Assembly (NCBI GenBank): GCA_018402155.1
Contig: JAGYJG010000001.1
Span: 2,190,501 to 2,254,500 of the forward strand
Direction: 5' to 3'
From: Bacteroidia bacterium
GTDB lineage: Bacteria > Bacteroidota > Bacteroidia > NS11-12g > UBA9320
Length of the DNA stretch: 64,000 bases
Shown here: piece after piece, positions 4,201-59,229 of the stretch
How the letters are laid out: each line of letters opens with the position of its first letter
How positions within the stretch are numbered: the first letter of the stretch is position 1
The notes under the pieces: model-generated
Database searches by the model: none
What the model saw: the letters and a program-made list of their open reading frames with translations, nothing else
What the model was told of the DNA's origin: nothing
Program-made: the position numbers and the translations under genes

Positions 4201-4208
4201 CAAATGTA
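4201..4208 (-). promoter_or_regulatory. -7 element of prfA
   Basis: TACATTTG on the minus strand is an exact match to TAnnTTTG. It lies 10 bases upstream of the prfA ATG. Confidence 0.5.
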
Positions 4209-4298: not shown

Positions 4299-5096
4299 CT
4301 AATTAGTAATAGAATAGCGAATGAGTAGAGATCCTAGACTGCTATACAGGTAGTTCTGATGAGACACTATAGAGCCGTTCTTTGATGTAACTATATTCAA
4401 TGCCACAGGATTTCTGAGTAGCCTATCATAGGTAAGCAGCTGTTTGTCTTGCTTTAATATAAAACGTGTGCCCAGGCTTAGCGCATCTGTTATGTTTGGG
4501 TAGTAGTACGTAGTGGCAAACGTTGCGTACATATCAAACTGATGTATCCCATTGCTAGTGTCTACGATATAGACGTCATTGTTTTCTTCCCACATTTTGG
4601 TAGGGTAAAAAGTATTGCCAAATATATTATTCAAAAAAGGTGATTCTGCTAATATTTCACCGTTTTTATTTATTTTGAGGAGCTTATATTGAGATAGGTC
4701 TACTAGCCAAATTTGATTGTCAAACGAGCGAGCTACGCACGCCACATTATTAAAATAGTGATCATTTAATCGTATCTCACCGCGTACATTTAGCATATTA
4801 TCATAAAAAACTAGGATGTTTTGGTCTTGATGAAAGACATACAACTCGAAAGCATTGCTGCAGTCTATACTTGTGATGTTTCCGTAAGCTTTTATGTTCA
4901 CATTAGTTATTCTTTTCCCGGTTGCATCGTATTTATAGAGCGTCAGTGAGTTGTCAGCTATGTAGTAGTTTCCTTTAGCATCTATTGCAAAAGCACTGAT
5001 CTCCTGCAAACTTGCCAGCTGCAATGTGTCTTGAGCTTGGCAAAAGTTTAGAGTAAAAACACTAATCGCGATAAGTATGCAGCGTAACATTCCCAT
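4299..5096 (-). CDS. Secreted hypothetical protein, beta-propeller-like
   Basis: I do not recognise this 265-aa protein as a named family. It begins with a signal peptide (LRCILIAISVFTLNFCQAQ, cleavage after QA predicted), so it should be periplasmic or exported. The mature part has repeated short strands with spaced aromatic and Asp/Asn residues (ISAFAIDAKGNYYIADNS, QIWLVDLSQYKLLKINKNG, DVYIVDTSNGIHQFD), which suggests NHL- or Kelch-like propeller blades. The gene overlaps the 3' end of lpxH by 35 bp if it starts at ATG 5096; ATG 5090, two codons in, is also possible. The overlap implies co-transcription and translational coupling with lpxH. Function unknown. Confidence 0.65.
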   Translation of the reverse strand: MGMLRCILIAISVFTLNFCQAQDTLQLASLQEISAFAIDAKGNYYIADNSLTLYKYDATGKRITNVNIKAYGNITSIDCSNAFELYVFHQDQNILVFYDNMLNVRGEIRLNDHYFNNVACVARSFDNQIWLVDLSQYKLLKINKNGEILAESPFLNNIFGNTFYPTKMWEENNDVYIVDTSNGIHQFDMYATFATTYYYPNITDALSLGTRFILKQDKQLLTYDRLLRNPVALNIVTSKNGSIVSHQNYLYSSLGSLLIRYSITN

Positions 5097-5805
5097 TTTC
5101 TAATTTAGCATAGGTATATTTATTGACCCAATCTCCTAGATTTATTAAACGTGCATTTTTTCTGATTGGTACATCCATAGGCTTATGCCTGTGTCCAAAA
5201 ATATAAAAATCCACCTCATTTTTTTGGCAGTGTTGCATAGCAAACTGATACTGATACTCCTGTTCTAGTGCCAAAGGTTTTTCGTCTTTCTGGCTATTTT
5301 TTTTTCGGCTGGTTTTGCTTAGATAGTGTGCTAGACGTATTCCAAAATTGGGGTGCAATCGGTGAAATAACCATGTAGCCCATGTACTTCTAAATACTTT
5401 TCTTACAAACTTATAAATCACTTCTCCTTTCCAAAGAGCATCTCCATGGTGTATAAAAAACTTTTTGTCGTGCAGTGTACCTTTCCATTGTTCATCCACT
5501 ACCTCCATGCCTATTTCATTAGCGAGGTAGTCAAAAGTCCACATATCGTGGTTTCCTTTGAAAAAATAGATTTTAATTCCATGATCACTCATTTCAGCCA
5601 GTTTGCCGAGTAAACGGATATAGTTCTTTGGCACTACTGTTTTGTACTCGTACCAAAAATCAAATACATCACCAAGGAGAAATAGCTGCTCGCAGTTGGG
5701 TGTAATTTCATCAAGCCAGCGCACTATTTTTTTTTCACGAAGAAGCGATGCTTCGTAGCTGGGTGTACCCAAATGAAAATCAGATGCGAAATAAATTATA
5801 CCCAT
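5062..5805 (-). CDS. lpxH: UDP-2,3-diacylglucosamine diphosphatase-like metallophosphoesterase
   Basis: A 247-aa calcineurin-like phosphoesterase that in lipid A synthesis hydrolyses UDP-2,3-diacylglucosamine to lipid X and UMP at the inner membrane. Metal-binding motifs are in order: DFHLG near residue 8, GDVFDFW near 44, GNHDMW near 78, HHGDALW near 114 and FGHRHKP near 204. The start is ATG 5805; an upstream TTG in frame lies inside the -7 element and is unlikely. The promoter TACATTTG at 5815-5822, with TTG 20 bases further up, leaves a leader of only a few bases. The secreted protein gene downstream overlaps it by 35 bp. Confidence 0.88.
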   Translation of the reverse strand: MGIIYFASDFHLGTPSYEASLLREKKIVRWLDEITPNCEQLFLLGDVFDFWYEYKTVVPKNYIRLLGKLAEMSDHGIKIYFFKGNHDMWTFDYLANEIGMEVVDEQWKGTLHDKKFFIHHGDALWKGEVIYKFVRKVFRSTWATWLFHRLHPNFGIRLAHYLSKTSRKKNSQKDEKPLALEQEYQYQFAMQHCQKNEVDFYIFGHRHKPMDVPIRKNARLINLGDWVNKYTYAKLENGNVTLHTYRD

Positions 5806-5814
5806 GCGAAAGCG

Positions 5815-5845
5815 CAAATGTAATGCAATGACTATACCTTAGCAA
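5815..5845 (-). promoter_or_regulatory. lpxH promoter
   Basis: On the minus strand TTG (5843-5845) and TACATTTG (5815-5822) are 20 bases apart. The -7 element ends 9 bases before the ATG, so the transcript should be almost leaderless. Confidence 0.55.
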
Positions 5846-8350: not shown

Positions 8351-8767
8351 ACCTTGAGTGGTGCAAAGATAGAGTTATTCTTTTACTCTATTCAGAGGGT
8401 TTTAAAAAACGAAAATTAGCAGGAGTAAAATAAATAGCACAATGATACACGCTTGAGTTGTGTTTAAGTTTTCACCCTTATAAAGTTTGACACCTTCGTA
8501 ATCCTTTGTAAGGGTTTCGTAAATGAACTTTAAAAAGGTAGATATATTCCACCTTAAATGAAGGGATACCGATACTAGGACATATTTGCTCTTCTATTGT
8601 TTTAACTGTAATCAGTAACAACAATATTGTACGAGACTATTTTTTTGGATCTGTGCCATTAGAGGCTGCGACTCTTTTTCTAAGAGGGTAAGTGTAACCT
8701 ATGTAATAGACAATAGAAAATATTATGTGCATACCAAACGTTCTCTGCGCGTAATTTTGCACAGTAA
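8351..8767. other. Intergenic region between divergent genes
   Basis: This 417-bp stretch separates the E1 gene from the flippase gene. It holds a -7 element for each: TATCTTTG on the minus strand (8364-8371) and TAATTTTG on the plus strand (8752-8759). The middle is AT-rich with a direct repeat TTCGTAA near 8495 and 8516. I see no convincing gene. Confidence 0.5.
8752..8759 (+). promoter_or_regulatory. -7 element of the flippase operon
   Basis: TAATTTTG matches TAnnTTTG and ends 8 bases before the ATG. No clear -33 element was seen at the expected distance. Confidence 0.45.
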
Positions 8768-10201
8768 ATGAGCGTCATTAGAAAATTGGCCAGTGATACG
8801 GCGATATACGGGATACCCAGTATTGTAGGGCGCTCTATAAATTTTCTGCTCATTTTCTTTTTTACAGAATATTTTACACCACAGCTTTTGGCACCTCATG
8901 TAGAGTTTTATGCATATGCTGGATTTTTCTTTGTTGTGCTTCCTCACGGTATGGAGACTGCGTTTTTTAATTTTGCGCGTACCCGAGAAAACTACCAAGA
9001 TGTATTTGCCACTGCTATGGTCTCTTTGCTTGTAGTGGTGTGTGTTTTTGCAGCCCTAATGTTTAGCAATCAGCACGCTATAAGTTTATTTGTGGGTCAT
9101 CCACAGCATGCTTCGTACGTTTTGTGGTTCACCTTGGTGATGGCTATCGACGTACTAAAATCTGTTCCCTATGCTTTGCTACGATATTTGAATAAAGCCA
9201 AAAAGTTTGCAATTGTAAAAAGCACAGGTATAGTAATCAATGTAGCGCTTAACGTTTTTTTCATAGTTTATTATCCTTTTCTAACCCATACACAGCCCGA
9301 TATTGAGTTTATTTTTATTACCAATTTGGCTGCAAGTGGTATTGAATTAGGATTGCTCTCATCCGATATTTTTAAGAATGTAGGAAAAACAAGTATAGCA
9401 TTATGGAAAAAAATGTTCAAGTACTCATGGCCATTAGTTTTGTTGGGATTTGCGGGTATGGTCAATGAAACTTTTGATAGATTGCTAATGCGAAAACTCT
9501 TGCCCTCTGAAACGGTAGATTATGAAATTGGTGTTTATGGAACATTTTATAAACTCAGTATGCTGATGACAATTTTTATTCAAGCCTTTCGCTATGCAGC
9601 AGAGCCGCTATTTTTTTCGGAAGCAAACAAAAGTGACGCAAAAAGTGCGTATGTGAAAATAATGGATTGGTTTGTATATGCTTGTGGCGGCATTTTCTTG
9701 ATCACATCTTTATTCAAAAAAGAAATAGCGGAACTATTGATACAAAAAGCAGAGTATCATCAGCATCCAGACGCATTATTTATTGTACCTATATTGTTGA
9801 TGGCCAACTTACTACTTGGGGTGTTTTTTAATCTTAGCATATGGTACAAACTCAATGATAAAACTAAATTAGGCGCCCTTGTTTCTATTGTAGGTGCAGT
9901 TATTACCGTTATTCTTTTGCTATTTTTTGTACCGCTTTATGGTTTTAAAGCTGCTGCCGTAACTACGCTTGTAGCCTACCTGACTATGACTGTGTTGAGC
10001 TATTTTTTGGGTCAAAAATACTACCCTGTTAAGTATAATATTAGGGTCATTTTTACACTGATAATTGCTAGTATTTTGCTTTATATACTATCAGAATATG
10101 ACGGATTAGTAGGATGGTCAGCTATAATTGTCAATCTTATTTACATCGTTATCTACCTCCTACTTGGCTACAGAATGATGATAAGTACGAGAAAATCCTA
10201 A
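8768..10201 (+). CDS. Oligosaccharide flippase family protein (polysaccharide/lipid-linked sugar exporter)
   Basis: The 477-aa product is a polytopic inner-membrane protein with about 12-14 hydrophobic helices, of the MATE-like/Wzx superfamily that flips undecaprenyl-linked sugars. The N-terminus ([20 protein letters not shown]) and the cytoplasmic loop with [17 protein letters not shown] are typical of Bacteroidota flippases. It starts at ATG 8768, eight bases after TAATTTTG. It opens a run of plus-strand genes (dut, nucleotidyltransferase, TPR, DUF4292), a familiar Bacteroidota order. The cargo is not known; cell-surface polysaccharide or a cell-wall intermediate is the inference. Confidence 0.85.
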
Positions 10202-18983: not shown

Positions 18984-20993
18984 TCAGGCTATAACACTCC
19001 CTTCAGCGGTTTTGTCTGTTGGATTTACAAATGTCAATTGCCCAGTGGCATCTTCTGCAAGTAGTATCATCCCGCTACTTTCTATGCCTTTTAGTTTGCG
19101 TGGTGCAAGATTTGCCAAATAGGTGACTTGTTTACCTATAATATCTTCTGGCTTAAAGTGTTCGGCAATTCCACTTACTACAGTGCGGGTTTCTAAACCT
19201 ATGTTTAGAGTTATATGTAGCAAGCGGTCTGCTTTCTTTACCTTTTCTGCCGCTACAATTGTAGCTACACGAATGTCTAGTTTTACAAAATCGTCAAAGC
19301 TTATTTCTGGTTTAAGTGGTGCTATAGGCATATTTTTTGGTTCTGCTTCATCTATTAATTCATTACTTTTTCCCTTTTTGAGCTTCTGTACTTGTTCGGC
19401 TATGATTTCGTCTTCTATTTTTTGAAACAGTAAAACTGGATCACCTAATACGTGACCTACTTGTATGTCTACATCATAGCTGTCTATCCTCAAAAGTTTA
19501 CGTATTTTGGTAGATGTTTCTGGTAAAAATATCTGTGCGTATTTACCAAGTTTTTTCACTTGGTCTAAACACGTGTAAAGACAATCGGCTATTTTTTGGG
19601 CATTGGCTTCATCTTTTATAAGTTTCCATGGTTCGGTATCTTGTAGGTATTTATTTCCGTTTCTGGCTATTTCCATATAGAACTCTAGTCCTTGGCGTTG
19701 GTTAAAAATTGAAAGAGCTTCTTCTAGTTTAGTGCTTACATCTGGGATGGAAGCACTAAGAGCACCTTGTGGCACTTTACCTCCATAATATTTATGGGTA
19801 AGTACTATAACCCTATTTATAAAATTTCCTAAAATGGCTACTAACTCATTATTGACCTTCGCTTGATAGTCTGCCCACGTGAAATCTGAGTCTTTTGTTT
19901 CCGGTAATATGCTCGTAAGTGCGTATCGTAGCTCATCTGTCTTATTCGGAAAATCTTGGATATACTCATGCAGCCAAATGGCGTGGTCTCTACTGGTTGA
20001 AATTTTATCTCCTTCTAGGTTTAAAAATTCGTTTGCAGGCACGTGCGTAGGCAAATTGAAACCACCGTGTGCGTGCAGCATAGCGGGGAAAATAATAGTG
20101 TGAAAAACAATGTTGTCTTTGCCCAAAAAATGCGTCATTTCAGTATCAGCGTCCATCCACCATTTTTGCCAATCGTCTCCTGCTGCTTCTTTAGTAGCGG
20201 TAATATAGCCTATGGGTGCGTCAAACCATACATACATTACCTTTCCTTCTGCATCTGTTAAAGGAACGGGCACACCCCAATCTAAGTCTCTGGTCATTGC
20301 TCGAGGTTTTAAACCTTCTTTCAACCAACTATTGCATTGACCATACACACTAGATTTCCATTTTGATTTCATAGATGCTACCCAATCGTTTAAAAATTCA
20401 GTTTGCATCTTATCTAAAGGCAAATACCAGTTTTTTGTCTCTTTACGTATAGGTGTATTTCCTGTGAGTGCAGATTTTGGAGAGACGAGTTCCGTAGGAC
20501 TACTTGTCCTCCCACATTTTTCGCATTGATCTCCATAGGCATTTTCATAAGCACAGTTTGGGCAGGTTCCCACTATATATCGGTCTGCTAAAAATTGCTT
20601 GGCTTCTTCATCGTAAAACTGCTCAGTTACTTCTTCTACAAAAACGCCTTTGTCATACAAGGTTTTGAAAAAATCTTGTGCCGTTTGGTGGTGTAGTTTG
20701 TGTGTAGTTCTACTAAAAGTATCAAAATGGATTCCGAAATCTTTGAGCCCTTTAGCTATGATGATATGATTCTCATCTACTACCTGTTGAGGTGTTTTTC
20801 CTTCATTTTTTGCCTTTAGCGTGATAGGCACCCCGTGCTCATCAGTGCCACAAACAAAAAGCACTTCTTTTCCTTGCATTCGTAAGAATCTGTTGTGAAT
20901 ATCTGAAGGTAAGAAGCAGCCAGCAATGTGTCCTATATGAACAGGGCCGTTAGCGTAGGGAAGCGCACAAGTGATAAGATGTCTTTTTGCCAT
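18984..20993 (-). CDS. metG: Methionyl-tRNA synthetase
   Basis: The 669-aa enzyme charges tRNA-Met and initiator tRNA. The HIGH-type motif is in YANGPVHIGHIAG (residues 11-23), the zinc knuckle in CPNC...CEKCG near 140-160, and the KMSKS loop reads KISTS near 335. An anticodon-binding helical domain follows, and the C-terminal 110 residues form an EMAPII-like tRNA-binding OB domain (FDDFVKLDIRVATIVAAEKV), as in long MetRS forms. ATG 20993 lies six bases after TACCTTTG (21000-21007); a TTG three codons upstream lies within that element and is rejected. The transcript is probably leaderless. Confidence 0.97.
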   Translation of the reverse strand: MAKRHLITCALPYANGPVHIGHIAGCFLPSDIHNRFLRMQGKEVLFVCGTDEHGVPITLKAKNEGKTPQQVVDENHIIIAKGLKDFGIHFDTFSRTTHKLHHQTAQDFFKTLYDKGVFVEEVTEQFYDEEAKQFLADRYIVGTCPNCAYENAYGDQCEKCGRTSSPTELVSPKSALTGNTPIRKETKNWYLPLDKMQTEFLNDWVASMKSKWKSSVYGQCNSWLKEGLKPRAMTRDLDWGVPVPLTDAEGKVMYVWFDAPIGYITATKEAAGDDWQKWWMDADTEMTHFLGKDNIVFHTIIFPAMLHAHGGFNLPTHVPANEFLNLEGDKISTSRDHAIWLHEYIQDFPNKTDELRYALTSILPETKDSDFTWADYQAKVNNELVAILGNFINRVIVLTHKYYGGKVPQGALSASIPDVSTKLEEALSIFNQRQGLEFYMEIARNGNKYLQDTEPWKLIKDEANAQKIADCLYTCLDQVKKLGKYAQIFLPETSTKIRKLLRIDSYDVDIQVGHVLGDPVLLFQKIEDEIIAEQVQKLKKGKSNELIDEAEPKNMPIAPLKPEISFDDFVKLDIRVATIVAAEKVKKADRLLHITLNIGLETRTVVSGIAEHFKPEDIIGKQVTYLANLAPRKLKGIESSGMILLAEDATGQLTFVNPTDKTAEGSVIA

Positions 20994-20999
20994 AAACGG

Positions 21000-21007
21000 C
21001 AAAGGTA
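21000..21007 (-). promoter_or_regulatory. -7 element of metG
   Basis: TACCTTTG on the minus strand ends 6 bases before the metG ATG, so transcription should start at or next to the start codon. Confidence 0.5.
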
Positions 21008-22125: not shown

Positions 22126-22287
22126 ATGTTTTTAGGTTTAGTTTATGTGCTTAGTATTGTAGACTTTCTGTCTGTAGCTATTTCAGCCTATGCGCTTATA
22201 TTTATTTTCGAGTACAAGCGAATAAATTGTGAGATAGAAAGATATAGAAAAGTATCAAAAATTGAAGAAGCGGAAGTAATTTCGTGA
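22126..22287 (+). CDS. Possible small membrane protein (53 aa)
   Basis: A short frame begins ATG 22126 and ends TGA 22287, six bases before the HAD hydrolase ATG. The product has one long hydrophobic segment (VLSIVDFLSVAISAYALIFI, residues 8-27) followed by a charged tail EYKRINCEIERYRK, the layout of a single-pass small membrane protein. It overlaps the end of an even shorter frame (22019-22135, 38 aa) by 10 bp. No homologue is known to me. Position and composition favour a real gene coupled to the HAD gene, but no promoter motif supports it. Confidence 0.35.
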   Translation: MFLGLVYVLSIVDFLSVAISAYALIFIFEYKRINCEIERYRKVSKIEEAEVIS

Positions 22288-22292
22288 CTCTT

Positions 22293-22721
22293 ATGGCAGA
22301 CAAGCATAAATTGAACGAGATTTTTGATAAAGAGGGTAAGTTAATAAGCCCTCAGTTGGCAACTGATGTAAAGAATTATCTTATCGATATAGATGGCACC
22401 ATTACCGAGGATGTGCCTAATGAGCAACCAGAGCGAATGGCTAGCTGCGAGCCTTTTGCAGATGCACTGGAAACGCTTAATCGGTGGTACGACCAAGGGC
22501 ATATAATTACTTTTTTTACGTCTCGCACTTTAGAGCATAAAGATGTAACTGATTCATGGCTCAAAAAGCATGGTTTTAAGCACCACGGTGTGCTTTATGG
22601 CAAGCCTAGGGGTGGCAACTACCACTGGATAGACAATCACATAGTGCGTGCTACAAAGTATAAAGGTAAATTTACAGACTTGGTAATGCAAACTAAAAAG
22701 GTAGAGTTATTTGAGGATTAG
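22293..22721 (+). CDS. HAD-superfamily phosphatase-like protein
   Basis: The 142-aa product carries HAD motif I as DIDGTITED (residues 29-37 from ATG 22293), motif II as FFTSRT near 75, and the acidic motif as WIDNH near 113, with Lys in GKPRGGNYHW. It is a compact HAD without a cap. Such Bacteroidota proteins have sometimes been labelled phosphoheptose isomerase, which the sequence does not support. The substrate is unknown. ATG 22293 is preferred to GTG 22284, which overlaps the upstream short frame. Confidence 0.75.
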   Translation: MADKHKLNEIFDKEGKLISPQLATDVKNYLIDIDGTITEDVPNEQPERMASCEPFADALETLNRWYDQGHIITFFTSRTLEHKDVTDSWLKKHGFKHHGVLYGKPRGGNYHWIDNHIVRATKYKGKFTDLVMQTKKVELFED

Positions 22722-31114: not shown

Positions 31115-31437
31115 TTTTATCCCGTTTTGCTGCAGGTTCTAACGTTCTATGGTAGAGTAAAATCCTATTAATAGCTTGTGTAATGAGCGAATCTGATGAT
31201 TGATACATAAAATGTGTAAATTTTTAAAAACGGTCAAATATGTCAATTCATATGAAATTACCCATGGGTTTTCTACTTTCTATAAGGATATTATAAATGG
31301 ACTTTATTGATTATTTGTAAGTGTTTAAATATTGCAAAGAATAGGTTTCTTGAGGTGTTTGTATATTTTTATAGGTCACACCACCTCATAAGGAGATACA
31401 TATTTTTTTAAGTTTCTTAGCTACCTTCGTACATTCG
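31115..31437. other. Intergenic region
   Basis: About 320 AT-rich bases without a gene. Its end holds TACCTTCG (31422-31429), a variant -7 element eight bases before the TPR gene. Confidence 0.5.
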
Positions 31438-33267
31438 ATGAGATTTTTATTCGTATTCTTAGTTACCATAGCCAATATGGTTTGCTATGCTCAAAATATA
31501 GACGAAAAATTAGCGTCTCAGTTTTTTGAAAACGGTGAGTATGAAAAAGCTGGAAGCTTATACAAAAAGCTGTACAAACAAAATATAAACTCAGTTTATA
31601 TATATGAAAATTACCTTAGGACACTGCTTGTTTTAAAAGACGAAAAAGAAGCGGTCAGACTGGTAGAAAAACAAATAAAGAAAAATACAACCCAGTTAAA
31701 CTACCAAGTAGATTTGGGCTATGTTTACCTGCAATTTGACCAAAAAGAAACAGCTGAAAAGTATTTTGATAAGCTAATACGCTCGTATGACGATGACCGG
31801 GGAAGTGTTACTTTCCTTGCACAAAGTTTTGACCGCAGAGGACTTACAGATTATCGCATATTGACCTTAGAACAAGGTGCAAAAAAACAAGGCATTTTGG
31901 TGTTTTTTGAGGAATTAATCGCTGCATATAGGTATACAAATAAGACTAAAGACCTCATAGACCTTACACTAGAAGCGCTGAAGCTTGACGGGCAGCTACT
32001 GGGTGATGCCACCCGAATGCTCGATCCTGTTTTTGAGAAAGAAGAAGATGCTTTATATCTACAAAACAGAGCATTGTACTATACACAGAAAAATCCAAGT
32101 AATCAGGTCTTTGAAGAGCTATTATTGGACATTTTTTTGCAACAAAAGAAGTATAAAGCGGCATTGAGACAGGTTGTTTCGCTAGACAAGCGCAACCAAG
32201 AAAAAGGAGGTCGTGTCTTGCAATTAGCAGATTTGTGCGTCAATAACCGAGCATACATTGAGGCAATAGAAGCATATACCTATGTTATAAACCTAGGTCA
32301 AAATGAAATGAGATTCAATCAAGGTCAAAACGGACTCATCAATGCTTTATATCTTAAAACGACCAGTTCTATTGCCCCAAGCAAGGAAGAAGTAACGAGC
32401 CTTATTTACAAGATAAATGACTACATAAGTAGCCAGGGTACCACTCGTACTACAGCATATAGTCAATTCAGACTTGCGGAATTGCATATTTTTTATAATG
32501 ATAATATACCTGTGGGTATTTCCATTTTAGAGGAAATAATACGCACGCCAAATCTCAGAATAAGTTTTGTGGCAGAATGCAAATTGCTGCTTGGTGACGC
32601 TTACCTTATGACAAACAATATCTGGGATGCAAAACTTATGTATGGTCAAGTAGATAAGCAGTTTAAAGAAGATGCTTTGGGCCAATTGGCGAAATTCAAA
32701 AATGCAAAATTAAGCTATTTTACGGGTGACTTTGATTGGGCAAAAGACCAACTAGATATACTAAAAACTGCTACCTCTCAACTTATAAGCAACAATGCCA
32801 TAGAACTAAGCCTATTGATACAAGATAATACCGGTCTAGATACCACAGACGAAGCTATGCAAGAATATGCAGCAGCAGAGTTTTTTCTGTATCAAAATAA
32901 GATAGCTCAATGTACAGAAATACTAAATATGCTGCCTTTTAAGTATCCAAATCACACTCTCAATGATGAAATATTGTACCTAAAAGCACGCGTGCAAGAA
33001 AAATTAGAAAACTACGAGGTTGCTATAAAACTATACACTACGTTGTATGAAAAATATAGCGAAGATATACTTGCAGACAATGCACTGTTCCGTGCAGCTA
33101 ATCTTACTCTTTTTTTGAGTGGCAACGAAGAAAAGGCTCAAGCCTTGTTTGAAAAATTGGTGCTAAATTATAATTCGAGCTTGTTTGTGGTAGATGCACG
33201 CAAACTTTATTTTGCACTAAAAGAGGGCAAAACAAAAGAAGAGCTTTTTTCGGATTTTAGTTTTTGA
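31438..33267 (+). CDS. Secreted TPR-repeat protein
   Basis: A 609-aa protein with a signal peptide (RFLFVFLVTIANMVCYAQ) followed almost wholly by TPR-like helix pairs, for example ENGEYEKAGSLYKKLYKQ near 32, QKETAEKYFDKLIRSY near 102, and ENYEVAIKLYTTLYEKYSED near 525. It lacks a lipobox and is expected in the periplasm, where it probably serves as a scaffold. No enzymatic domain is visible. ATG 31438 lies eight bases after TACCTTCG. It stands between the tRNA and dinB with a gap of almost 300 bases on each side. Function unknown. Confidence 0.75.
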   Translation: MRFLFVFLVTIANMVCYAQNIDEKLASQFFENGEYEKAGSLYKKLYKQNINSVYIYENYLRTLLVLKDEKEAVRLVEKQIKKNTTQLNYQVDLGYVYLQFDQKETAEKYFDKLIRSYDDDRGSVTFLAQSFDRRGLTDYRILTLEQGAKKQGILVFFEELIAAYRYTNKTKDLIDLTLEALKLDGQLLGDATRMLDPVFEKEEDALYLQNRALYYTQKNPSNQVFEELLLDIFLQQKKYKAALRQVVSLDKRNQEKGGRVLQLADLCVNNRAYIEAIEAYTYVINLGQNEMRFNQGQNGLINALYLKTTSSIAPSKEEVTSLIYKINDYISSQGTTRTTAYSQFRLAELHIFYNDNIPVGISILEEIIRTPNLRISFVAECKLLLGDAYLMTNNIWDAKLMYGQVDKQFKEDALGQLAKFKNAKLSYFTGDFDWAKDQLDILKTATSQLISNNAIELSLLIQDNTGLDTTDEAMQEYAAAEFFLYQNKIAQCTEILNMLPFKYPNHTLNDEILYLKARVQEKLENYEVAIKLYTTLYEKYSEDILADNALFRAANLTLFLSGNEEKAQALFEKLVLNYNSSLFVVDARKLYFALKEGKTKEELFSDFSF

Positions 33268-37906: not shown

Positions 37907-37914
37907 TACCTTTG
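37907..37914 (+). promoter_or_regulatory. -7 element of era
   Basis: TACCTTTG ends six bases before ATG 37921, predicting a leaderless mRNA. Confidence 0.5.
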
Positions 37915-37920
37915 TATTCT

Positions 37921-38802
37921 ATGTTTAAATCAGCATTTGTTACTATACTAGGACTGCCTAATGCAGGAAAATCTACATTTCTCAATGCAGCCTTGGGAGA
38001 AGATCTAGTAATAACTAATCCAAAAGCTCAAACTACACGCCACCGAATAAAAGGAATACTAAATGCATCAGAATATCAGTTGGTATTTAGTGATACCCCA
38101 GGTATTATAGAGGAATCTGCCTACCGATTGCAGGAGGCAATGATGGGTGCAGTTAATGAATCGTTGGAGGATGCGGATATAGTTTTACTCATTTTAGATG
38201 GACAATTTCCAAAAGTAGAACTTTTCGAAGCATATAGAAACCGCATAAATTGTCCACTTGTGGTGGTTATGAATAAAGTAGACCTAGTAGCAGACCAAGA
38301 GCAACTGCAAGCAGACATACTGAAGGTAAAAGAATATCTCAAAACCGAGTACGCTTTTGCAGCTAGTGCTAAAGAGGGATTTAATATAGATGGGATTATA
38401 AAGACTTTGGTAGAATTAGCACCAGAGCATCCCCCTTTTTATGACACTGAAAGTATAAGTGATGAAAATGTACGCTTTTTGGTAAGCGAAATGATACGTG
38501 AGCAAATTCTTACACAGTTTAAGAAAGAGATACCATACAGTGTAGAGGTAGTGGTGACGGAGTACCACGAAAAAGAAAAGCTAGACGAAATTTATGCGAC
38601 AATACATGTAGAACGAGACTCCCAAAAAGGAATACTTCTTGGAAAAAGTGGCAGTGCTATTAAAAATTTGGGGATAGCCTCTCGAAAGCGTATAGAAGAA
38701 TTTATTAAGAAGAAAATATTTTTATCTCTTACAGTAAAGGTGAAAAAAGATTGGCGCAGTGATGAGCAGCAGCTTAAATATTTTGGGTATTTAAAGAAAT
38801 AA
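37921..38802 (+). CDS. era: GTPase Era
   Basis: The 293-aa GTPase binds 16S rRNA near its 3' end and assists 30S assembly. G1 is GLPNAGKST (residues 11-19), G3 is DTPG near 57, and G4 is NKVD near 120; the C-terminal KH domain with GKSGSAIKNLG near 240 binds RNA. The G1 Gly-Leu-Pro replaces the more usual GRPN. ATG 37921 is preferred to TTG 37912, which forms part of the -7 element. It is followed after 158 bases by der. Confidence 0.95.
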   Translation: MFKSAFVTILGLPNAGKSTFLNAALGEDLVITNPKAQTTRHRIKGILNASEYQLVFSDTPGIIEESAYRLQEAMMGAVNESLEDADIVLLILDGQFPKVELFEAYRNRINCPLVVVMNKVDLVADQEQLQADILKVKEYLKTEYAFAASAKEGFNIDGIIKTLVELAPEHPPFYDTESISDENVRFLVSEMIREQILTQFKKEIPYSVEVVVTEYHEKEKLDEIYATIHVERDSQKGILLGKSGSAIKNLGIASRKRIEEFIKKKIFLSLTVKVKKDWRSDEQQLKYFGYLKK

Positions 38803-45891: not shown

Positions 45892-46000
45892 AATAACAAA
45901 AGAAATGTTCTGTTATAACTATCGTTACTATCATTAATATATAAGATAAAATGACGATACGTAGACTAAGTTAATAAAATGACATATTTGCACTAGTATA

Positions 46001-47153: not shown

Positions 47154-48116
47154 ATCCATAACTACCTTAAAAACGGTCTCGCCTACCGCTTTTAGTGTGT
47201 TTTTGTCTATAGACTTCATGTTGTCGCTATGGCGATGCCAAAATTCACCAAACCCTGTGCCCGTGGGTTCGTAGTGTATGATGTCTAATGTTGGTATTCC
47301 TAGTATTTGATTGATGAATACATGGTCATCTAAGATTTCACCACCTTCATAATTGACAAAATAGGCTCCATGACCCAGGGTGGCTGCGGTATTCCATACC
47401 TTTTTTACATAAGGTTGTGCGTAGCGCCATGAGTAGGCCTCTATGGCAAATATAGCATCTTTGGGTCCTACCATATCTAGTAGTATGCCAAAGCGTGCTA
47501 CGTAGTTTGGTTTGTGAGGTGTTTTAGACCAATATTGCGAGCCTAAGCACCAGCTAGTTGCTCCACCCTCTCGGTCGCCCATGTCTTCTGCATCAAAAAA
47601 TATAATATCTACGCCAGCATCTGGCCTTTGAGCTTGTAATTGGCGTGCTATCTCTAAGAGCACGCCTACGCCACTAGCGCCGTCGTTGGCGCCATCGGCA
47701 GGTTCTGTTGGTCTGTCTAAATCTTGATCAGCTTGTGGGCGGGTATCCCAATGGGCGCAGAGTAGTACTCGCTTTGTTTGTTCAGAATTTATAGTGCCTA
47801 CGATATTCTTTATTGCCACGTTTGTTCCTCGTCCTGTTGGCATAGTTCCATACTGAGTAAACGCAGTATCGCAAAACATGGCAAGTTTATTTTGTAAATA
47901 GACGGCTGCCTTGGCATGGGCAATAGTGCCGGGTACTCGCGGTCCAAAATCTACTTGTTGTTGCACATAAAAGTAGGCACTATCTTCATCGAATTTTACT
48001 GTAAAATTGGGTTTTTCAGTTGTAGTTTTTTTATCGTTAGATTTAGGTTGGTCTTTACAGCTGCTTGCACCTAATATACATATGCCAAAGGCCAAAATGT
48101 TAAGTCTTATTTTCAT
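47148..48116 (-). CDS. M28 family metallopeptidase lipoprotein (glutaminyl cyclase-like)
   Basis: A 322-aa lipoprotein ([14 protein letters not shown], Cys20). The zinc-site motifs are [11 protein letters not shown] near 117, [17 protein letters not shown] near 140 and FFDAEDMGD near 173, with late motifs [20 protein letters not shown] near 270 and the final FWHRHSDN. This order fits M28 peptidases and the glutaminyl-peptide cyclotransferase branch; peptidase or cyclase activity cannot be separated here. Its ATG overlaps the cysS stop by 4 bp (ATGA), so it is co-translated. Confidence 0.88.
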
Positions 48117-49588
48117 TGCTTTATTTTGAACGTGCTTCCTTCTTTACCATCCATTATATCTATACCGGCTTGTATTAGTCCTTCGCGTATTTTGTCTGCT
48201 GTTGTCCAATCTTTGTTTTCTTTAGCTGTTTTTCGTATATCTAGCACCATATTCATTACTCCGTTTAAGACTTCATTGTTTGTTGTTTTTTCTTGGGTTA
48301 GTCCCAAAATATCGAATGTAAAAAAAGTGAAGGTCTCTTGCAACAGTGTTTTGTCTTCAGCTGATAAACACATATTTTTAGCATCTATTTCATTAATCCA
48401 TTTGGCGGCTTCAAAAAGCGTAGCAATCACCTGTGGGGTTGCTATATCATTGTTCATATGGACAAAGAGTTTCTCGCGCCATTTTTTAAAGTCTACATCG
48501 CTACTTATAGAGGTAGTCAAGTTTGCTATTTTTGCTGCAGCGTTCATAAGGCGATGGTATCCTTTTTCGGCTGCTTGTAGTGCTTCATTGCTAAAGTCTA
48601 AGGTGCTTCGGTAGTGTGCTTGGAGCAAGAAAAAGCGCAAAGTCATAGGGCTGTATGCCTGCTCAAGCAAGTCGTGGTTTCCAGTGAAAAGTTCTTCTAT
48701 TAAAACACCATTGTTTAAGCTTTTAGCCATTTTTTGACCATTGATCGTTATCATATTGTTATGCATCCAGTAGCGTGGTGTGCTGCATCCACAAGACGTG
48801 CTTTGTGCTATTTCGCTTTCGTGATGCGGAAATAGTAGATCTATACCGCCAGCGTGAATATCAAACATTTTACCTAAATACTTTTCGCTCATCGCTGAAC
48901 ATTCAATATGCCACCCCGGAAAACCTTCACTCCATGGACTCTTCCATTTCATAATATGCTCTGATGTCGCTTTTTTCCAAAGCGCAAAATCATTAGGGTT
49001 TTTCTTTTCTTCTTGGCCTTCTAAAGTTCTTCGCTCTTGGCCTGCTCCAGCTAGTAGGTCCTCTATTTTTCTACCACTTAATTTTCCGTAATCCCCAGAT
49101 TTGGCATATTTCAACACATCAAAATAGACAGAGCCGTTGCTTTCGTAAGCCAGGTCATTTGCCATAATTTCCGCTATCATCTCGATCTGTTCAGGAATAT
49201 GGCCACTTGCTCTTGGCTCTATACTGGGTGGTAGTACGTTCATTTGTAAAAGTACTTTGTGATATGCATTGGTGTACCTTTGCGCTACTTCCATAGGCTC
49301 TATGTGGTTCGCCTTGGCTATTTTGCCTATTTTATCCTCACCCTCGTCAGCATCATTTAGTAGATGTCCTACATCTGTAATGTTGCGTACATAGCGCACC
49401 TTATAGCGCAAGTGAGTAAGGTATCTAAATAGTACATCCATCATAATTGCACCACGGCTATGACCTAAGTGAGGGTCGCCATACACAGTTGGTCCACACA
49501 GATACATACCCACAAATGGTGGATTTATAGGTTCGAACTCTTCGGTTTGCTTTGATAATGTGTTATATATATGAAGTCTAGAAGACAT
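48113..49588 (-). CDS. cysS: Cysteinyl-tRNA synthetase
   Basis: The 491-aa enzyme activates Cys and charges tRNA-Cys. Zinc ligand Cys31 is in [11 protein letters not shown], the HIGH motif is HLGH in GDPHLGHSR near 37, zinc ligands continue in HIECSAM near 228 and [11 protein letters not shown] near 250, and the KMSKS loop is KMAKSLNN near 285. The C-terminal anticodon-binding helices are complete. ATG 49588 lies four bases after TATATTTG (49593-49600), so the mRNA is probably leaderless. It leads a two-gene unit with the M28 peptidase. Confidence 0.97.
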
Positions 49589-49592
49589 AGCG

Positions 49593-49600
49593 CAAATATA
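49593..49600 (-). promoter_or_regulatory. -7 element of cysS
   Basis: TATATTTG on the minus strand ends four bases before the cysS ATG. Confidence 0.5.
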
Positions 49601-49678: not shown

Positions 49679-50269
49679 CTAATTTTTTGATTGCTTATTG
49701 GGATAAAACGAAACTTTTTTTGCCCACTCTCCTCTTTGCCCTTTTGATTCAATACTTTCAAGCGATCGGGTACCCACGTAAAATAACCCCAAGCATCTTT
49801 CAGATTCTGACAAATGCAGAAATGCAGCAAAATCTGAATCCAACGCGTAGGCCGGCGTACTCCAGTAGCCACCATATTTTAGTGTTTTAGTGAGGTAAAG
49901 CCACATATTTTGTACGGCCATTGCAGTAGCGGCTATTTCTTCAAATTCTGGTATTAGATTATTTCGCTGCATGCAAATGACTATAATGTGGCTTACTTGC
50001 TTTTTACGCTCTTCCAGCTTTTCTATTTTTGTGTGGTTAAAAAGTGCAGCGGGTGTTTGTACCACATAGCTGTTTTTGCAATGGTCTAAAAGCCTGTCTT
50101 TGTCCTCTTCTGCAAATACCTTAAATCGCCATGGCTCTGTATTGAGATGGGTAGGTGCCCAGTTGGCCATCTCTAACATTTTTTCTAAAACTTCTATTGG
50201 CACTTTTTCCCCACTCATTTGCTTTGGGTATAAAGACCTTCTTCGGCGTATACTTTCTTCTAATGTCAT
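49679..50269 (-). CDS. Nitroreductase family protein
   Basis: A 196-aa FMN-dependent oxidoreductase. The N-terminal RRRRSLYPKQMSGEKVP with NWAPTHLNTEPWRFKVF (about 33-49) is the family's flavin-phosphate site; AATAMAVQNMWLYLTKTLKYGGYWST (split, about 115-140) and GLFYVGTRS near 166 complete the fold. It resembles the short YdjA/TdsD-type reductases. Substrate unknown. ATG 50269 lies 10 bases after TAAATTTG (50280-50287) and shares a 74-base divergent region with sod. Confidence 0.88.
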   Translation of the reverse strand: MTLEESIRRRRSLYPKQMSGEKVPIEVLEKMLEMANWAPTHLNTEPWRFKVFAEEDKDRLLDHCKNSYVVQTPAALFNHTKIEKLEERKKQVSHIIVICMQRNNLIPEFEEIAATAMAVQNMWLYLTKTLKYGGYWSTPAYALDSDFAAFLHLSESERCLGLFYVGTRSLESIESKGQRGEWAKKVSFYPNKQSKN

Positions 50270-50279
50270 TATTGATAAA

Positions 50280-50315
50280 CAAATTTACGTTTTCGTTGTA
50301 GTATATGTACCTTTG
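50280..50315. promoter_or_regulatory. Divergent -7 elements of nitroreductase and sod
   Basis: TAAATTTG on the minus strand (50280-50287) serves the nitroreductase and TACCTTTG on the plus strand (50308-50315) serves sod. The -33 region of each must overlap the other promoter. Confidence 0.45.
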
Positions 50316-51008: not shown

Positions 51009-51031
51009 TAAGCTTTGGAGATTTACTTTTG
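50999..51031 (+). promoter_or_regulatory. Promoter of the SPOR protein gene
   Basis: TTTG (50999-51002), 21 bases, TACTTTTG (51024-51031). The -33 element lies in the T-run of the sod terminator, and the -7 element ends four bases before ATG 51036. Confidence 0.55.
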
Positions 51032-51035
51032 CACT

Positions 51036-51599
51036 ATGAATTTTTTGAAATGGTTAGCATATTTCGTTGCAGTTTTTGCTTTTATTTGGTTTGTTTTTTT
51101 TAGGCCAGTGGGAGACAAAATGACTACAACAAGTGAAACAACAAGGGATACTTCTCCAAAGCCTGAAGAGAAAAATTCTGAAATAGAAGACTTCGCAGAT
51201 TTAGAAATATACGACAGCGATACAGTAATCATAATCGATTCGCAAACAAATATTGCTGAAAATGAGGGAGAACTTGAAAGCGATGCTTATGATATACAAC
51301 AAACCCCTATTCTAGAAGAAACTACCACAACAAATGAAACCCCAATTGATGTGGTATCATCAAATAGAGTAAATCTAGATGAGAATTATTTAATAGTAGT
51401 GGGAAGTTTTAAGGTTATGAACAATGCAAAAAACCTGCTTAAAACATTTGAAGAAATGGATTTCGGAGGAAAAATAACTAAAATAAATGGACTGCATCGC
51501 GTAGTCATTGCCTCTAGTAACAATGAAGTAGTAGCAAGACAAACCCTCAAAGAATTTACAAAAAACTACCAAAAACCAGCATTTGTATTGAAACAGTAG
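51036..51599 (+). CDS. SPOR domain protein, single membrane helix
   Basis: A 187-aa protein with an N-terminal membrane anchor (FLKWLAYFVAVFAFIWFVFF, residues 3-22), an acidic Glu/Thr/Asp-rich linker (about 25-120), and a C-terminal SPOR domain (YLIVVGSFKVMNNAKNLLKT, about 121 to the end) which binds denuded peptidoglycan at the septum in other bacteria. A role in division or wall remodelling is inferred. ATG 51036 is preferred to an in-frame TTG at 51015, which lies before the -7 element. The mRNA is predicted leaderless. Confidence 0.83.
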   Translation: MNFLKWLAYFVAVFAFIWFVFFRPVGDKMTTTSETTRDTSPKPEEKNSEIEDFADLEIYDSDTVIIIDSQTNIAENEGELESDAYDIQQTPILEETTTTNETPIDVVSSNRVNLDENYLIVVGSFKVMNNAKNLLKTFEEMDFGGKITKINGLHRVVIASSNNEVVARQTLKEFTKNYQKPAFVLKQ

Positions 51600-55410: not shown

Positions 55411-55441
55411 TTGCACAAGCGTTGACATACACTTACTTTTG
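55411..55441 (+). promoter_or_regulatory. Promoter of the LD-carboxypeptidase gene
   Basis: TTG (55411-55413), 20 bases, TACTTTTG (55434-55441), four bases before ATG 55446. The arrangement is almost identical to that of the SPOR gene. Confidence 0.55.
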
Positions 55442-55445
55442 TTCT

Positions 55446-56336
55446 ATGTATCTCAAAAAAGGTGACAGCATTGCTTTAGTTAGTCCAGCGAGGGCGATAT
55501 CACAGGAGTTAGTAATGCCTGCTATTCTTTTTTTTGAAGAGTATGGACTGGACGTAAAAGTAGGTAAACATGCGTATAACATCAATCACCAGATGGCAGG
55601 TACTGAAGCTGAGAAAGTTGAAGATATACAACAGTTTATATGCGACCCAGAAGTAAGAGCTATAGTAAGCACTCGCGGAGGCTATGGATGTGTTAAGATA
55701 ATAGATCAACTCGATTTTGGTCCTCTTGCAAAGCAAAATAAGTGGTTCGTAGGGTACAGTGACATTACGGTTTTTCATTCTCATATACATCAAAATTTTG
55801 GCACCCCAACCCTTCACGCGACTATGCCAGTAAATATTTCTGCTATGCCTAGTCTCATAGAAAACGAAACTAATAAATCACTTATAGCAGCACTCATGGG
55901 TCAAGATCTCGTTTATGATTTACCAAATCATCCGTTGAATGTACCTGGAGATGCAAAGGGTGTTTTAGTGGGAGGAAATCTTAGCGTTTTGTGCAGCTTA
56001 TGCGGGTCAACCTCTGATATCGATACTCAAGGGAAGATTCTTTTTTTGGAAGATGTGGATGAGTATCTTTACCACATAGATCGAATGATGATGAATCTGA
56101 AACGTGCCGGAAAGTTAAAGTCGTTAGCCGCAATGGTTATAGGGGGTATGACCGATATGAGAGATAATAATATACCATTTGGTCAATCTGCAAGTGAAAT
56201 CATATTGCAACATACACAAGAGTTTGGCTACCCTATCTATTTTGATTTGCAAGCTGGCCATTGTCAACCAAATGTAGCGCTTCGTTTTGGATTACAGGCC
56301 GAAATAAAGAATAATCAGCTACTTTTGCTAGCTTAA
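55446..56336 (+). CDS. LD-carboxypeptidase, S66 family
   Basis: A 296-aa serine peptidase that trims the terminal D-Ala from L,D-bonds in muropeptide tetrapeptides during wall recycling. The nucleophile Ser is in VGYSDITVF near 99, preceded by STRGGYGCVKII; the catalytic Glu is in LFLEDVDEYLYHIDRM near 204 and the His in LQAGHCQPN near 273. No signal peptide is seen, fitting a cytoplasmic enzyme. ATG 55446 is preferred to TTG 55422, which precedes the -7 element. gtrA follows after 11 bases. Confidence 0.92.
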   Translation: MYLKKGDSIALVSPARAISQELVMPAILFFEEYGLDVKVGKHAYNINHQMAGTEAEKVEDIQQFICDPEVRAIVSTRGGYGCVKIIDQLDFGPLAKQNKWFVGYSDITVFHSHIHQNFGTPTLHATMPVNISAMPSLIENETNKSLIAALMGQDLVYDLPNHPLNVPGDAKGVLVGGNLSVLCSLCGSTSDIDTQGKILFLEDVDEYLYHIDRMMMNLKRAGKLKSLAAMVIGGMTDMRDNNIPFGQSASEIILQHTQEFGYPIYFDLQAGHCQPNVALRFGLQAEIKNNQLLLLA

Positions 56337-56347
56337 ATTTTCGATTT

Positions 56348-56800
56348 ATGGCAATTTATCAAGCGAGCAAGCAACTTACAAAGTTTATTATCTCCGGTGT
56401 TTTCGCTGTAGGTGTAGACTTTTTGGCTTACTTTGCTCTTTCGCAGTTTTTGGATCCAAGTAGTAGCAAAGCAATTAGCTTTTGTTTTGGTATGGTAGTT
56501 ACCTACAATATGAACAAATTTTGGACTTGGAAACAGCCTGAAAAAAATAATAAAAGGTTACTTCTTTTCAGTTTCTTATATACTATCGCACTGCTTGTAA
56601 ACGTATCCATGAATAATATAATGCTTAATTTACTTCCAAATTACACATTACACATCGGATTAAATACAGATGCGCAAGAGTTACTCAATTCGCTTGTAAT
56701 AGGGTTAGATAAATTACTCGCATTCTTAATTGCTACAGTGGCAAGTGTATTAATTACGTTTATTGGCCAAAAATATTGGCTTTTTAAGGATAGGAACTAA
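56348..56800 (+). CDS. GtrA family membrane protein
   Basis: A 150-aa protein with four membrane helices in the GtrA pattern (FIISGVFAVGVDFLAYFAL near 12-30; FGMVVTYNMNKFWTWK near 48-63; two more after 77). GtrA-like proteins are thought to flip undecaprenyl-linked sugars for glycosylation of surface polymers. It is in one unit with the LD-carboxypeptidase gene. Its last four bases overlap the end of the opposite-strand gene that follows. Confidence 0.87.
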   Translation: MAIYQASKQLTKFIISGVFAVGVDFLAYFALSQFLDPSSSKAISFCFGMVVTYNMNKFWTWKQPEKNNKRLLLFSFLYTIALLVNVSMNNIMLNLLPNYTLHIGLNTDAQELLNSLVIGLDKLLAFLIATVASVLITFIGQKYWLFKDRN

Positions 56801-57234
56801 TAGTTTGGACGTTTTAAAATGGTTTGGGCGATAATAGCATCCCTTAATTTAAAATGAATAGGGTCGTGTGCTTCTTCCTCTAGCTTTACTTTTAGGGTTT
56901 CTAGCTTAGCGACTTTTTCTTTTGTATAATGAGTGGGTGTGGGAACTTCTACATTCTTATTTTGTATCGATTGTAAATCATATTGTCGTTCGCGTTTACG
57001 CTCTTCATGCAATTCTTCATAGGTTAAATCCTTTGGTAAAGGTGGAGTAGTTTTTGTTTTATCTCCAACCAATTCTTGTAGAATATCTTTTAATGAAGGT
57101 GTTGTTTGCTCAGAATTATTTCTTTTATTAGTTTTTGGAGTGCTATTCCGTTTTTGTTCCTTTTTTTTGCTCTCACCAAAAAATTTGTAAATAACGTACA
57201 AAGCTAAAGGTATAAATTTTAATAAATCTTCCAT
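56797..57234 (-). CDS. Hypothetical protein with one N-terminal membrane helix
   Basis: A 145-aa protein of no function known to me. An N-terminal hydrophobic segment (LLKFIPLALYVIYKFFG, residues 4-20) is followed by a basic, flexible stretch and charged helices (LTYEELHEERKRERQYD), ending HFKLRDAIIAQTILKRPNY. This layout is seen in a Bacteroidota-specific hypothetical family whose C-terminus is HF-x-LR-x-A-x-I-x-x-x-I-L-x-RP. It is convergent with gtrA (4-bp overlap) and divergent from folK with only 26 bases between the start codons. TACCTTCG (57244-57251) is its likely -7 element, nine bases before the ATG. Confidence 0.7.
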   Translation of the reverse strand: MEDLLKFIPLALYVIYKFFGESKKKEQKRNSTPKTNKRNNSEQTTPSLKDILQELVGDKTKTTPPLPKDLTYEELHEERKRERQYDLQSIQNKNVEVPTPTHYTKEKVAKLETLKVKLEEEAHDPIHFKLRDAIIAQTILKRPNY

Positions 57235-57260
57235 TGAGAGAAACGAAGGTAATCAAAAAA

Positions 57261-57734: not shown

Positions 57735-58288
57735 AACTTGTATGTGTTGGTAATATTGCCTTTTGGAGTACTTTTTTATTAGACAAAAATCCTGTATTGT
57801 ACCTTAACCATACATTTCAAAAGCAATGTGAATTGTCTCAATATGAAATAGTAACGGCAAATGGCAGGCTGAAAATGAGTGTACCTACAATAAAGGAAAC
57901 ACGAAAAGGTGCCTATAGTCAAGTAAAAATAGACTATACGAGCAAATGGCAGGTAGAGCAATGGCGTAGTATAGAAAATGCATACCGAAAATCACCTTTT
58001 TTTCTTTATTACGAGCGCAAAATAGGTGAGGTATTTAGGTCAGATCACACTACGCTTTTGCAGTTTAATCTCGCACTCTTTAGAATTCTTTGCAATTGTT
58101 TGAAAGTAAAAGAATTTCCAATACTCAACACAACCGTCCCGTGTTGTTTTGCTAAAACACTTTTTGTTCAAAATGAGCCTTACCCTCAAGTATTTGATAA
58201 TACAATGAAATTTGAGGAGAATTTAAGTATTTTGGATTTGATATTTAATCTTGGCCCAGAGGCTAAAGATTATTTAGTATCGCTATAA
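57731..58288 (+). CDS. WbqC family protein
   Basis: A 185-aa protein following the WbqC pattern: a short N-terminal strand, then [20 protein letters not shown] (about 33-52), [16 protein letters not shown] (about 78-93), and a hydrophobic C-terminal half. WbqC proteins occur in O-antigen and other glycan loci, but their activity is uncertain; some are proposed to be transferases. It is translationally coupled to folK and overlaps accA tail-to-tail by 19 bp. Confidence 0.8.
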
Positions 58289-59229
58289 GATCCCATATTG
58301 CTAAACTTTCGTATTCGCTGGTTCACCAGTTTTTTGGTGCTCAACTCGGTTAGCTCCTTTAGGTGTTTTTTAAGTTCTACTTTCATAGTTTTATACATAC
58401 ACTCCGGGTCGTTATGTGCTCCACCAAGAGGCTCTGGTATAATTCCATCTATTAACTTATTGGCTAACATTTTATCTGAAGTTAGGCTGAGTACGTCAGC
58501 AGCTTCCTCTTTATGATCCCAATTTCTCCATAAAATACTAGAACAGCTCTCAGGAGAAATAACAGAATACCAAGTATTTTCGAGCATTAGTACCCGATCG
58601 CCTACGCCTATGCCCAATGCCCCGCCACTAGCACCTTCTCCAATTACAACACAGATAATAGGTACCTTTAAAGTAGCCATCACCATAAGATTTTTAGCTA
58701 TCGCTTCTCCTTGGCCTCGTTCTTCAGCTTCTAGGCCTGGGAATGCTCCCGGGGTATCTATTAAACAAATGACCGGTAAATTAAATTTCTCTGCCATTTG
58801 CATAAATCGCATGGCTTTTCTATATCCTTCTGGATTTGGCATCCCAAAGTTTCGATATTGGCGCTCTTTGGTAGTACGACCTTTTTGTTGGCCTATAATC
58901 ACAACATTGATATTGTCTATGGTAGCTAATCCACCCACCATTGCTTTATCATCTCCGAAATTTCTATCGCCATGCAGTTCAACAAAGTTTTTTGAAATCG
59001 CTTGGATATAGTCTAAGGTATAAGGCCTATCTGGGTGGCGAGAAATCTGTACCTTTTGCCATCCTGAAAGGTCGTTGTAGAGCGTTTTCTTTTCGGTGTG
59101 CAATTTTTTTGCCAATTGAGTTATGGTATCGCTCATATCTACTTTTCCTTTGGCGTGTGTTATCTTGGCTTTCTCCAATTGCTCAATTAGCTCTTCAAGT
59201 GGTTTTTCAAAATCTAATAATGTGGCCAT
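58270..59229 (-). CDS. accA: Acetyl-CoA carboxylase, carboxyltransferase alpha subunit
   Basis: The 319-aa subunit, with AccD, transfers carboxyl from biotin to acetyl-CoA to give malonyl-CoA, the first step of fatty-acid synthesis and the extender for the type III PKS upstream in the window. Motifs are [19 protein letters not shown] near 82, [18 protein letters not shown] near 132, [20 protein letters not shown] (about 158-177) and [19 protein letters not shown] (about 197-215). ATG 59229 follows TACTTTTG (59254-59261) by 24 bases; TTG nine codons upstream lies within that element. It overlaps the wbqC gene end by 19 bp. Confidence 0.96.

Follow-up and report, generated by a model that had tools for sequence, protein, structure and literature searches.

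Promoter-like −7 elements a few nucleotides upstream of start codons point to leaderless and near-leaderless mRNAs in a member of the Bacteroidia

Bacteroidota largely do without Shine-Dalgarno pairing, and base preferences upstream of the start codon are used instead (PMC6847099). Leaderless mRNAs have been invoked for this phylum in one survey; according to the transcript starts mapped in three species, they are rare. In Flavobacterium johnsoniae 13% of the leaders are 10 nt or shorter, with a mean of 33 nt (PMC6847099), in F. psychrophilum 5.5% of the transcripts are described as leaderless with a median leader of 24 nt, and in Bacteroides thetaiotaomicron 3.7% of the leaders are shorter than 10 nt with a median of 32 nt. 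According to the published material considered, these three species of the same phylum share with the genome described here both the −7 element (TAHHTTTG/TAnnTTTG) and the presence of leaderless or near-leaderless mRNAs. The survey (PMC5397173), which deals with genes lacking a Shine-Dalgarno site, describes base biases in four Bacteroidetes species and suggests leaderless mRNA and/or contacts with S1 as explanations, so that the leaderless idea for Bacteroidetes in general is not new. The same survey warns that the biases are not simply attributable to leaderless promoters and states, citing others, that the leaderless fraction of Bacteroidetes is generally high. It is concerned with general base biases, whereas the present analysis considers TAHHTTTG at an exact spacing, genome by genome.

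Leaderless mRNA has also been linked with Flavobacteriia that lack CCUCC (PMC10783764). In the leaderless genes of Actinobacteria and Deinococcus-Thermus, too, a leaderless mRNA is predicted by a promoter box close to the gene, some 10-12 nt ahead of the start codon, but this box is of the sigma-70 type TANNNT (PMC3160421). In that study E. coli promoter data served as reference and a substantial number of Bacteroidetes genes were filed as atypical. The survey may not have recognised TAHHTTTG, and its reliance on the E. coli reference is perhaps the reason why leaderless-rich Bacteroidota lineages were not singled out. Within the part of the non-subscription literature covered (leaderless mRNA in combination with Bacteroidota, Flavobacteri or TAnnTTTG), no report of a Bacteroidota lineage dominated by leaderless genes was found.

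The window analysed here is a stretch of 64,000 nt from a Bacteroidia genome of 2.49 Mb in 10 contigs, which is probably marine, judging from the isolate names of the nearest era relatives (uncultured Bacteroidetes bins). The original prediction was that TAnnTTTG or TAnnTTCG ends 4-10 nt upstream of the start codon of eleven named genes and that many genes are leaderless, with leaders of 0-5 nt. All eleven elements were found (Table 1). The pattern TAnnTTYG at 4-10 nt was present in 12 of the 51 genes of the window compared to 0.32 in shuffled sequences, and the exact element TAHHTTTG at these distances in 9 of the 51 compared to 0.16. The arrangement is clear in the housekeeping genes era, metG, and cysS. 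Pfam searches support the family assignment of nine of the eleven named genes; prfA (release factor) and lpxH (phosphoesterase) bear the specific names given in the original prediction, with Pfam backing the families, and the flippase and the hypothetical gene at 57234 gave no Pfam match. The element's own TTG had also been held responsible for overcalled N-termini, and it is indeed the first in-frame NTG of era, metG, and lpxH, as well as of accA (58270-59229). For gene prediction in the phylum, TAHHTTTG could serve as a hint to the start site, and the TTG of the element should not be called as a start.

Table 1. Elements of the −7 type upstream of genes in the window. Spacing is the number of nucleotides between the last G of the element and the start codon.
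Feature	Position	Strand	Sequence	Remark
era, −7 element	37907..37914	+	TACCTTTG	6 nt upstream of ATG 37921
era, GTPase with KH domain	37921..38802	+		start pinned by GLPNAGKS (residue 11); no further Met before residue 74
cysS (48113-49588), −7 element	49593..49600	-	TATATTTG	4 nt upstream of ATG
SPOR-domain gene (51036-51599), −7 element	51024..51031	+	TACTTTTG	4 nt upstream of ATG
LD-carboxypeptidase (55446-56336), −7 element	55434..55441	+	TACTTTTG	4 nt upstream of ATG
metG (18984-20993), −7 element	21000..21007	-	TACCTTTG	6 nt upstream of ATG
Flippase, name from the original prediction (8768-10201), −7 element	8752..8759	+	TAATTTTG	8 nt upstream of ATG
TPR gene (31438-33267), two −7-like elements	31422..31437	+	TACCTTCG TACATTCG	8 and 0 nt upstream; the second directly adjoins the ATG
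lpxH-like phosphoesterase (5062-5805), −7 element	5815..5822	-	TACATTTG	9 nt upstream of ATG
prfA (3123-4190), −7 element	4201..4208	-	TACATTTG	10 nt upstream of ATG
Nitroreductase (49679-50269), −7 element	50280..50287	-	TAAATTTG	10 nt upstream of ATG
Hypothetical gene (56797-57234), −7-like element	57244..57251	-	TACCTTCG	9 nt upstream of ATG
Gene 22293-22721, absent from the original list, −7-like element	22277..22284	+	TAATTTCG	8 nt

Very probably these elements belong to ordinary promoters of the Bacteroidota primary sigma factor (−7 TAHHTTTG) which lie so near the gene that the RNA would start on or just before the ATG. Support at the DNA level comes from the element itself, the limit on its spacing, the preference for ATG, the restriction to genes that can start a transcript and the conservation at several genes; the transcript ends and the mode of ribosome initiation are predicted. 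With a primary-sigma (sigma-ABfr) promoter in this position, RNA polymerase would start at the A of the ATG or slightly ahead of it. A spacing of 4-6 nt would then result in a leaderless mRNA (0-2 nt) and a spacing of 7-10 nt in a leader of about 3-6 nt, and the ribosome would begin at the 5'-terminal AUG without upstream contact. A 5'-terminal AUG can bind 70S ribosomes, or 30S subunits together with initiator tRNA. In many candidate promoters described for F. johnsoniae, 4 or 5 nt separate the start site from TAHHTTTG (PMC6847099). The predicted leaders of 0-5 nt were retained in part, as five of the eleven genes are expected to have leaders of 0-2 nt; the other six are better described as near-leaderless because the published distance of 4-5 nt from element to start site leaves leaders of about 3-6 nt.

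Gene starts were collected from 400 kb (about 16%) of the genome plus the window, together 464 kb of which 7.5 kb consists of N, and were set to the leftmost ATG. The exact element TAHHTTTG was found at 4-10 nt in 29 of 328 genes compared to 1.43 in shuffled sequences (60 shuffles, maximum 6), and at 0-3 nt in none of the 328 genes. The histogram of spacings (327 genes) is empty at 0-3 nt, contains 7, 3, 5, 3, 3, 4, and 4 genes at 4 to 10 nt, respectively, and trails out to about 30 nt. Genomes of the same genus (287 genes) likewise gave no gene at 0-3 nt and 13, 6, and 2 genes at 4, 5, and 6 nt. When the window's genome and its genus are taken together, 21 of the 33 TAHHTTTG-N4-ATG matches end in an ATG that is the leftmost one in a called gene, and none of the 32 matches at spacings 1-3 from an ATG is a gene start. 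Start codons at spacings 4-6 in open reading frames of at least 100 codons were ATG in 37 cases, GTG in 6 and TTG in 3. Given the distance of 4-5 nt in F. johnsoniae, the abrupt onset at 4 nt agrees with a transcript starting on the A of the ATG. The first bases after the element tend to be C or T, and no clear rule for the initiator base was found in the bases following the element.

Matches to the pattern were also counted in the entire genome. Spacing 4 was found 60 times, compared to 24 times for spacing 1, which was chosen as a control because it has the same codon phase as spacing 4, and 29 times for the reversed pattern. With spacing 2 (TAHHTTTG-NN-ATG) as the control there was no whole-genome excess (60 vs. 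57). This weakest of the controls was set aside as biased, since TTT-GNN-ATG would keep the codon phase, and spacing 1 and the reversed pattern were used besides. None of the 18 sampled spacing-2 matches in the window's genome and its genus is a called gene start, and ten matches sampled from the former looked coding-like by eye.

An unlikely but serious alternative is that most leaders are short but real (at least 3 nt), with a start site closer to the element than was supposed, so that few mRNAs would truly begin with a 5'-AUG. This would suit the six of the eleven listed genes with spacings of 8-10 nt, the broad range of spacings in the window's genome, from 4 to about 30 nt, and the spacing of 3 nt found in four genes of G116 and three genes of G076, two genomes from other lineages of the class (see below). 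However, a nearer start site would permit spacings of 0-2 nt, and these are absent from all four samples (own genome, same genus, G116, and G076), in each of which 4 nt is the commonest single spacing.

Much less probable is that the motif acts in translation, as a Kozak-like or S1-type signal on the mRNA which happens to resemble the −7 element, and that the transcripts start further upstream. The upstream base preferences reported for a phylum without Shine-Dalgarno sites (PMC6847099) and the fixed distance of the motif from many starts are in agreement with such a signal, but it would be expected in operon-internal genes as well. When genes with a co-directional neighbour ending less than 25 nt upstream were classified as operon-internal-looking, the element at 3-6 nt was absent from all 86 such genes of the window's genome, compared to 15 of the 236 others that carry it. 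With the genus included, the numbers are 3 of 166 compared to 31 of 444. The contrast is weaker in G116 because six of its 75 operon-internal-looking genes have the element, which is a point in favour of a translation signal. Judged from gene layout, the genes bearing the element would be the first in their transcript. Further points against a translation signal are the distribution of spacings, which sets in abruptly at 4 nt and trails off towards about 30 nt, and the scarcity of G at the third and fourth positions of the element in the window's genome and its genus (4 elements at 3-6 nt with and 34 without G; background 17 and 31). The mapped F. johnsoniae promoters also avoid G at these two positions of the −7 element (PMC6847099). 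This scarcity was not seen in G116 (7 with and 29 without G; background 0 and 7). A −33 element (TTTG/TTG) was not evident, with TTG in the expected window of 11 of 36 leaderless compared to 25 of 74 leadered promoters; the −33 element is described as weak in F. johnsoniae too (PMC6847099). Taken together, the edge at 4 nt, the preference for ATG, the absence from operon-internal-looking genes and the conservation described below favour a promoter over a translation signal, as far as can be judged from DNA.

Conservation of the element was analyzed in relatives. In era it is present at 4-6 nt in all ten same-genus genomes, the window's genome included, in which the start region was available in the reading direction; this count omits an eleventh same-genus genome (G017) and several order-level loci, which were available in the opposite direction. 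The spacings in era are 6, 5, 5, and 5 nt, plus 4 nt in combination with GTG. The latter was found in G011 and G007 (L075, L043), where GTG follows TACTTTTG or TACCTTTG, suggesting that GTG may be acceptable as a leaderless start. The era genes from beyond the genus mostly lack the exact element, with near matches in G023 (CATCTTTG, 4 nt before TTG) and G020 (GACCTTTG, 6 nt before ATG). The spacing of 4 nt in cysS is kept in G006 and G011 (4/4/4), and the order-level cysS genes (L099, L124) have no element. The SPOR gene keeps 4 nt in G006 at a protein identity of 35%, and its homologue in G011 has no element. For metG, the spacing of 6 nt is kept in G023, which belongs to another genus. The larger spacings are also found in relatives: 8/7/7 for the flippase (7 nt in G011 with TAGATTTG and 7 nt in G023 with TACTTTTG), 10/9 for prfA (9 nt in G020), and 10/10 for the nitroreductase (10 nt in G006). 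The TPR gene is variable, with 8 nt in the window and the nearest elements at 16, 7, and 9 nt in relatives. No homologue of lpxH, of the LD-carboxypeptidase, or of the hypothetical gene at 57234 was present in the loci of relatives that were compared.

A start further downstream is impossible for era, for metG (HIGH at residue 19, next Met at 39) and for lpxH (DFH near residue 9, next Met at 72). We take GLPNAGKS of era to be the G1 motif, HIGH to be the conserved motif of metG, and DFH to be the metal motif of lpxH. A further Met within 30 residues is present in six of the eleven genes, namely at residue 14 (TPR gene), 18 (nitroreductase), 24 (LD-carboxypeptidase), 28 (prfA and cysS), and 29 (SPOR gene). 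As the leftmost ATG was used, these six genes could accommodate a later start. It is nevertheless hardly credible that start codons were misassigned and that later Met codons behind promoters with ordinary leaders are the true starts: the motifs of era, metG, and lpxH forbid it, genus- or family-level homologues of cysS, era, metG, prfA, the nitroreductase, and the SPOR gene align from residue 1, and misassignment would not produce an edge at 4 nt.

The fraction of genes with a promoter this close was estimated from the DNA sequence with an EM mixture model using a softened −7 matrix, in which promoters are recognised within 102 nt. This analysis placed a putative promoter at 3-6 nt in 7.8% of the genes of the window's genome (bootstrap 5.1-11.6%), or about 1 in 13, with 0.6% for internal in-frame ATGs as control. 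Of all recognised promoters in this genome, 16% (10-21%) are at 3-6 nt and 44% (bootstrap 33-50%) at 3-14 nt, corresponding to leaders no longer than about 10 nt. The values at 3-14 nt and 3-6 nt are 29% (15-39%) and 11% (2-19%) for a pool of G078, G042, G084, and G047, and 20% (9-28%) and 14% (3-21%) for G229/208. In this same pipeline, the window's genome is thus not clearly set apart from the pool or from G229/208 at strict spacings. G047 was pooled by its gene-start sample and not by its whole-genome ratio (25 vs. 3 at spacing 1). The shares mapped in the three species mentioned above (3.7-13%) are lower than the DNA-based 44%, but methods differ and the gap is indicative only. Strictly leaderless genes look like a minority, about 8% of the genes of this genome. 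Of the prediction that many genes are leaderless, the promoter-like character of the elements was borne out by the same four lines of evidence that favour a promoter, but the word leaderless goes too far for the list as a whole.

To determine how common the arrangement is, TAHHTTTG-N4-ATG was counted in 197 genomes drawn from the class, together with the spacing-1, reversed and spacing-2 patterns. The N4 pattern was commoner than spacing 1 in 191 of the 197 genomes (z > 3 in 125); it outnumbered its reverse in 190 genomes and spacing 2 in 186. When the genomes are ordered by the excess per Mb relative to the reversed pattern, the window's genome comes 67th of 197 and is ordinary for its class. 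These counts suggest that the arrangement is widespread at a low level, with a few lineages in which it is prominent. Two small orders are outliers. In f39, three genomes of one genus (at least 85% completeness) have 234-317 matches compared to 47-53 for the reversed pattern, with 317 vs. 90 at spacing 1 in G076. In f43, eight genomes of one genus (at least 85% completeness) each have 105-190 matches compared to 3-14 reversed, with 190 vs. 7 at spacing 1 in G116. Among 77 genomes of the window's own order, the genus g131 stands out (129 vs. 9, 93 vs. 10, and 109 vs. 8 reversed). The leaderless arrangement is known and ordinary for the class, and looks far commoner in f39 and f43.

For f39 and f43, gene starts were taken from one sampled genome each, the other genomes being represented by pattern counts. 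In 240 kb of G116 (a single contig of 2.27 Mb, 55% GC), the exact element is present at 3-6 nt in 30 of 174 genes, with 2 matches at 11-19 nt and 8 at 20-29 nt. In 156 kb of G076 it is present at 3-6 nt in 21 of 104 genes. The EM model indicated that about 29% of the genes look leaderless in both genomes, corresponding to 59% of the recognised promoters in G116 and 36% in G076. In other genomes the exact element was found at 4-6 nt in 8 of 92 genes (G055), 5 of 64 (G229/208), 3 of 49 (G085), 2 of 53 (G057), 1 of 56 (G078), 0 of 38 (G042), 0 of 46 (G084), 0 of 26 (G047), 7 of 112 (G039/37), 4 of 100 (G023), 4 of 131 (G026), 2 of 124 (G027), and 1 of 91 (G020/21/19). G085 and G057 had been picked as rich by pattern count, and their small gene-start samples do not clearly confirm this richness. 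Thermophily was considered as a driver and rejected, as the IVYWREL proxy is high in G116 (f43, about 62 °C) and not in G076 (f39, about 22 °C).

With respect to the ribosome, bS21 is present in all 24 genomes searched. Of 23 genomes, four yielded a 16S rRNA, among them the leaderless-rich G244 but no member of the window's genus, f39, or f43; the anti-Shine-Dalgarno sequence CACCTCCTTT is intact in all four. Loss of the anti-Shine-Dalgarno sequence or of bS21 in leaderless-rich lineages is thus unsupported, with 16S cases that include G244 and none from f39 or f43. A search of the window's genome found no 16S; one of its sampled loci (L030, 10001-17500) contains a run of 7.5 kb of N, which may be a masked rRNA operon. 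It seems probable that leaderless initiation is graded in Bacteroidota, being low in most lineages and a principal mode in at least two distinct orders of the class (f43 and f39), whose ribosomes may be adapted to routine 5'-AUG starts. This would provide a testable series from leadered to leaderless under one promoter code.

Some further features of start regions were observed. On contig 1 of G116 (L130, 14498-15862), two divergent genes are separated by 38 bp, and −7 elements are located 3 and 4 nt before their ATGs; these are therefore two apparently leaderless promoters back to back. In G076 (L125-L129, L172-L176), a T just before the ATG was found in 15 of 20 leadered genes and in 64% of 66 others, compared to 41% and 33% in the window's genus, suggesting that this T is a lineage-specific start context. 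Upstream of the sodium/calcium exchanger gene at 46001 (45983-46000 of the window), the −7 element is represented by the TA-to-CA variant CATATTTG, with a spacing of 10 nt from the ATG; in two other members of the genus the spacing is 7 and 10 nt.
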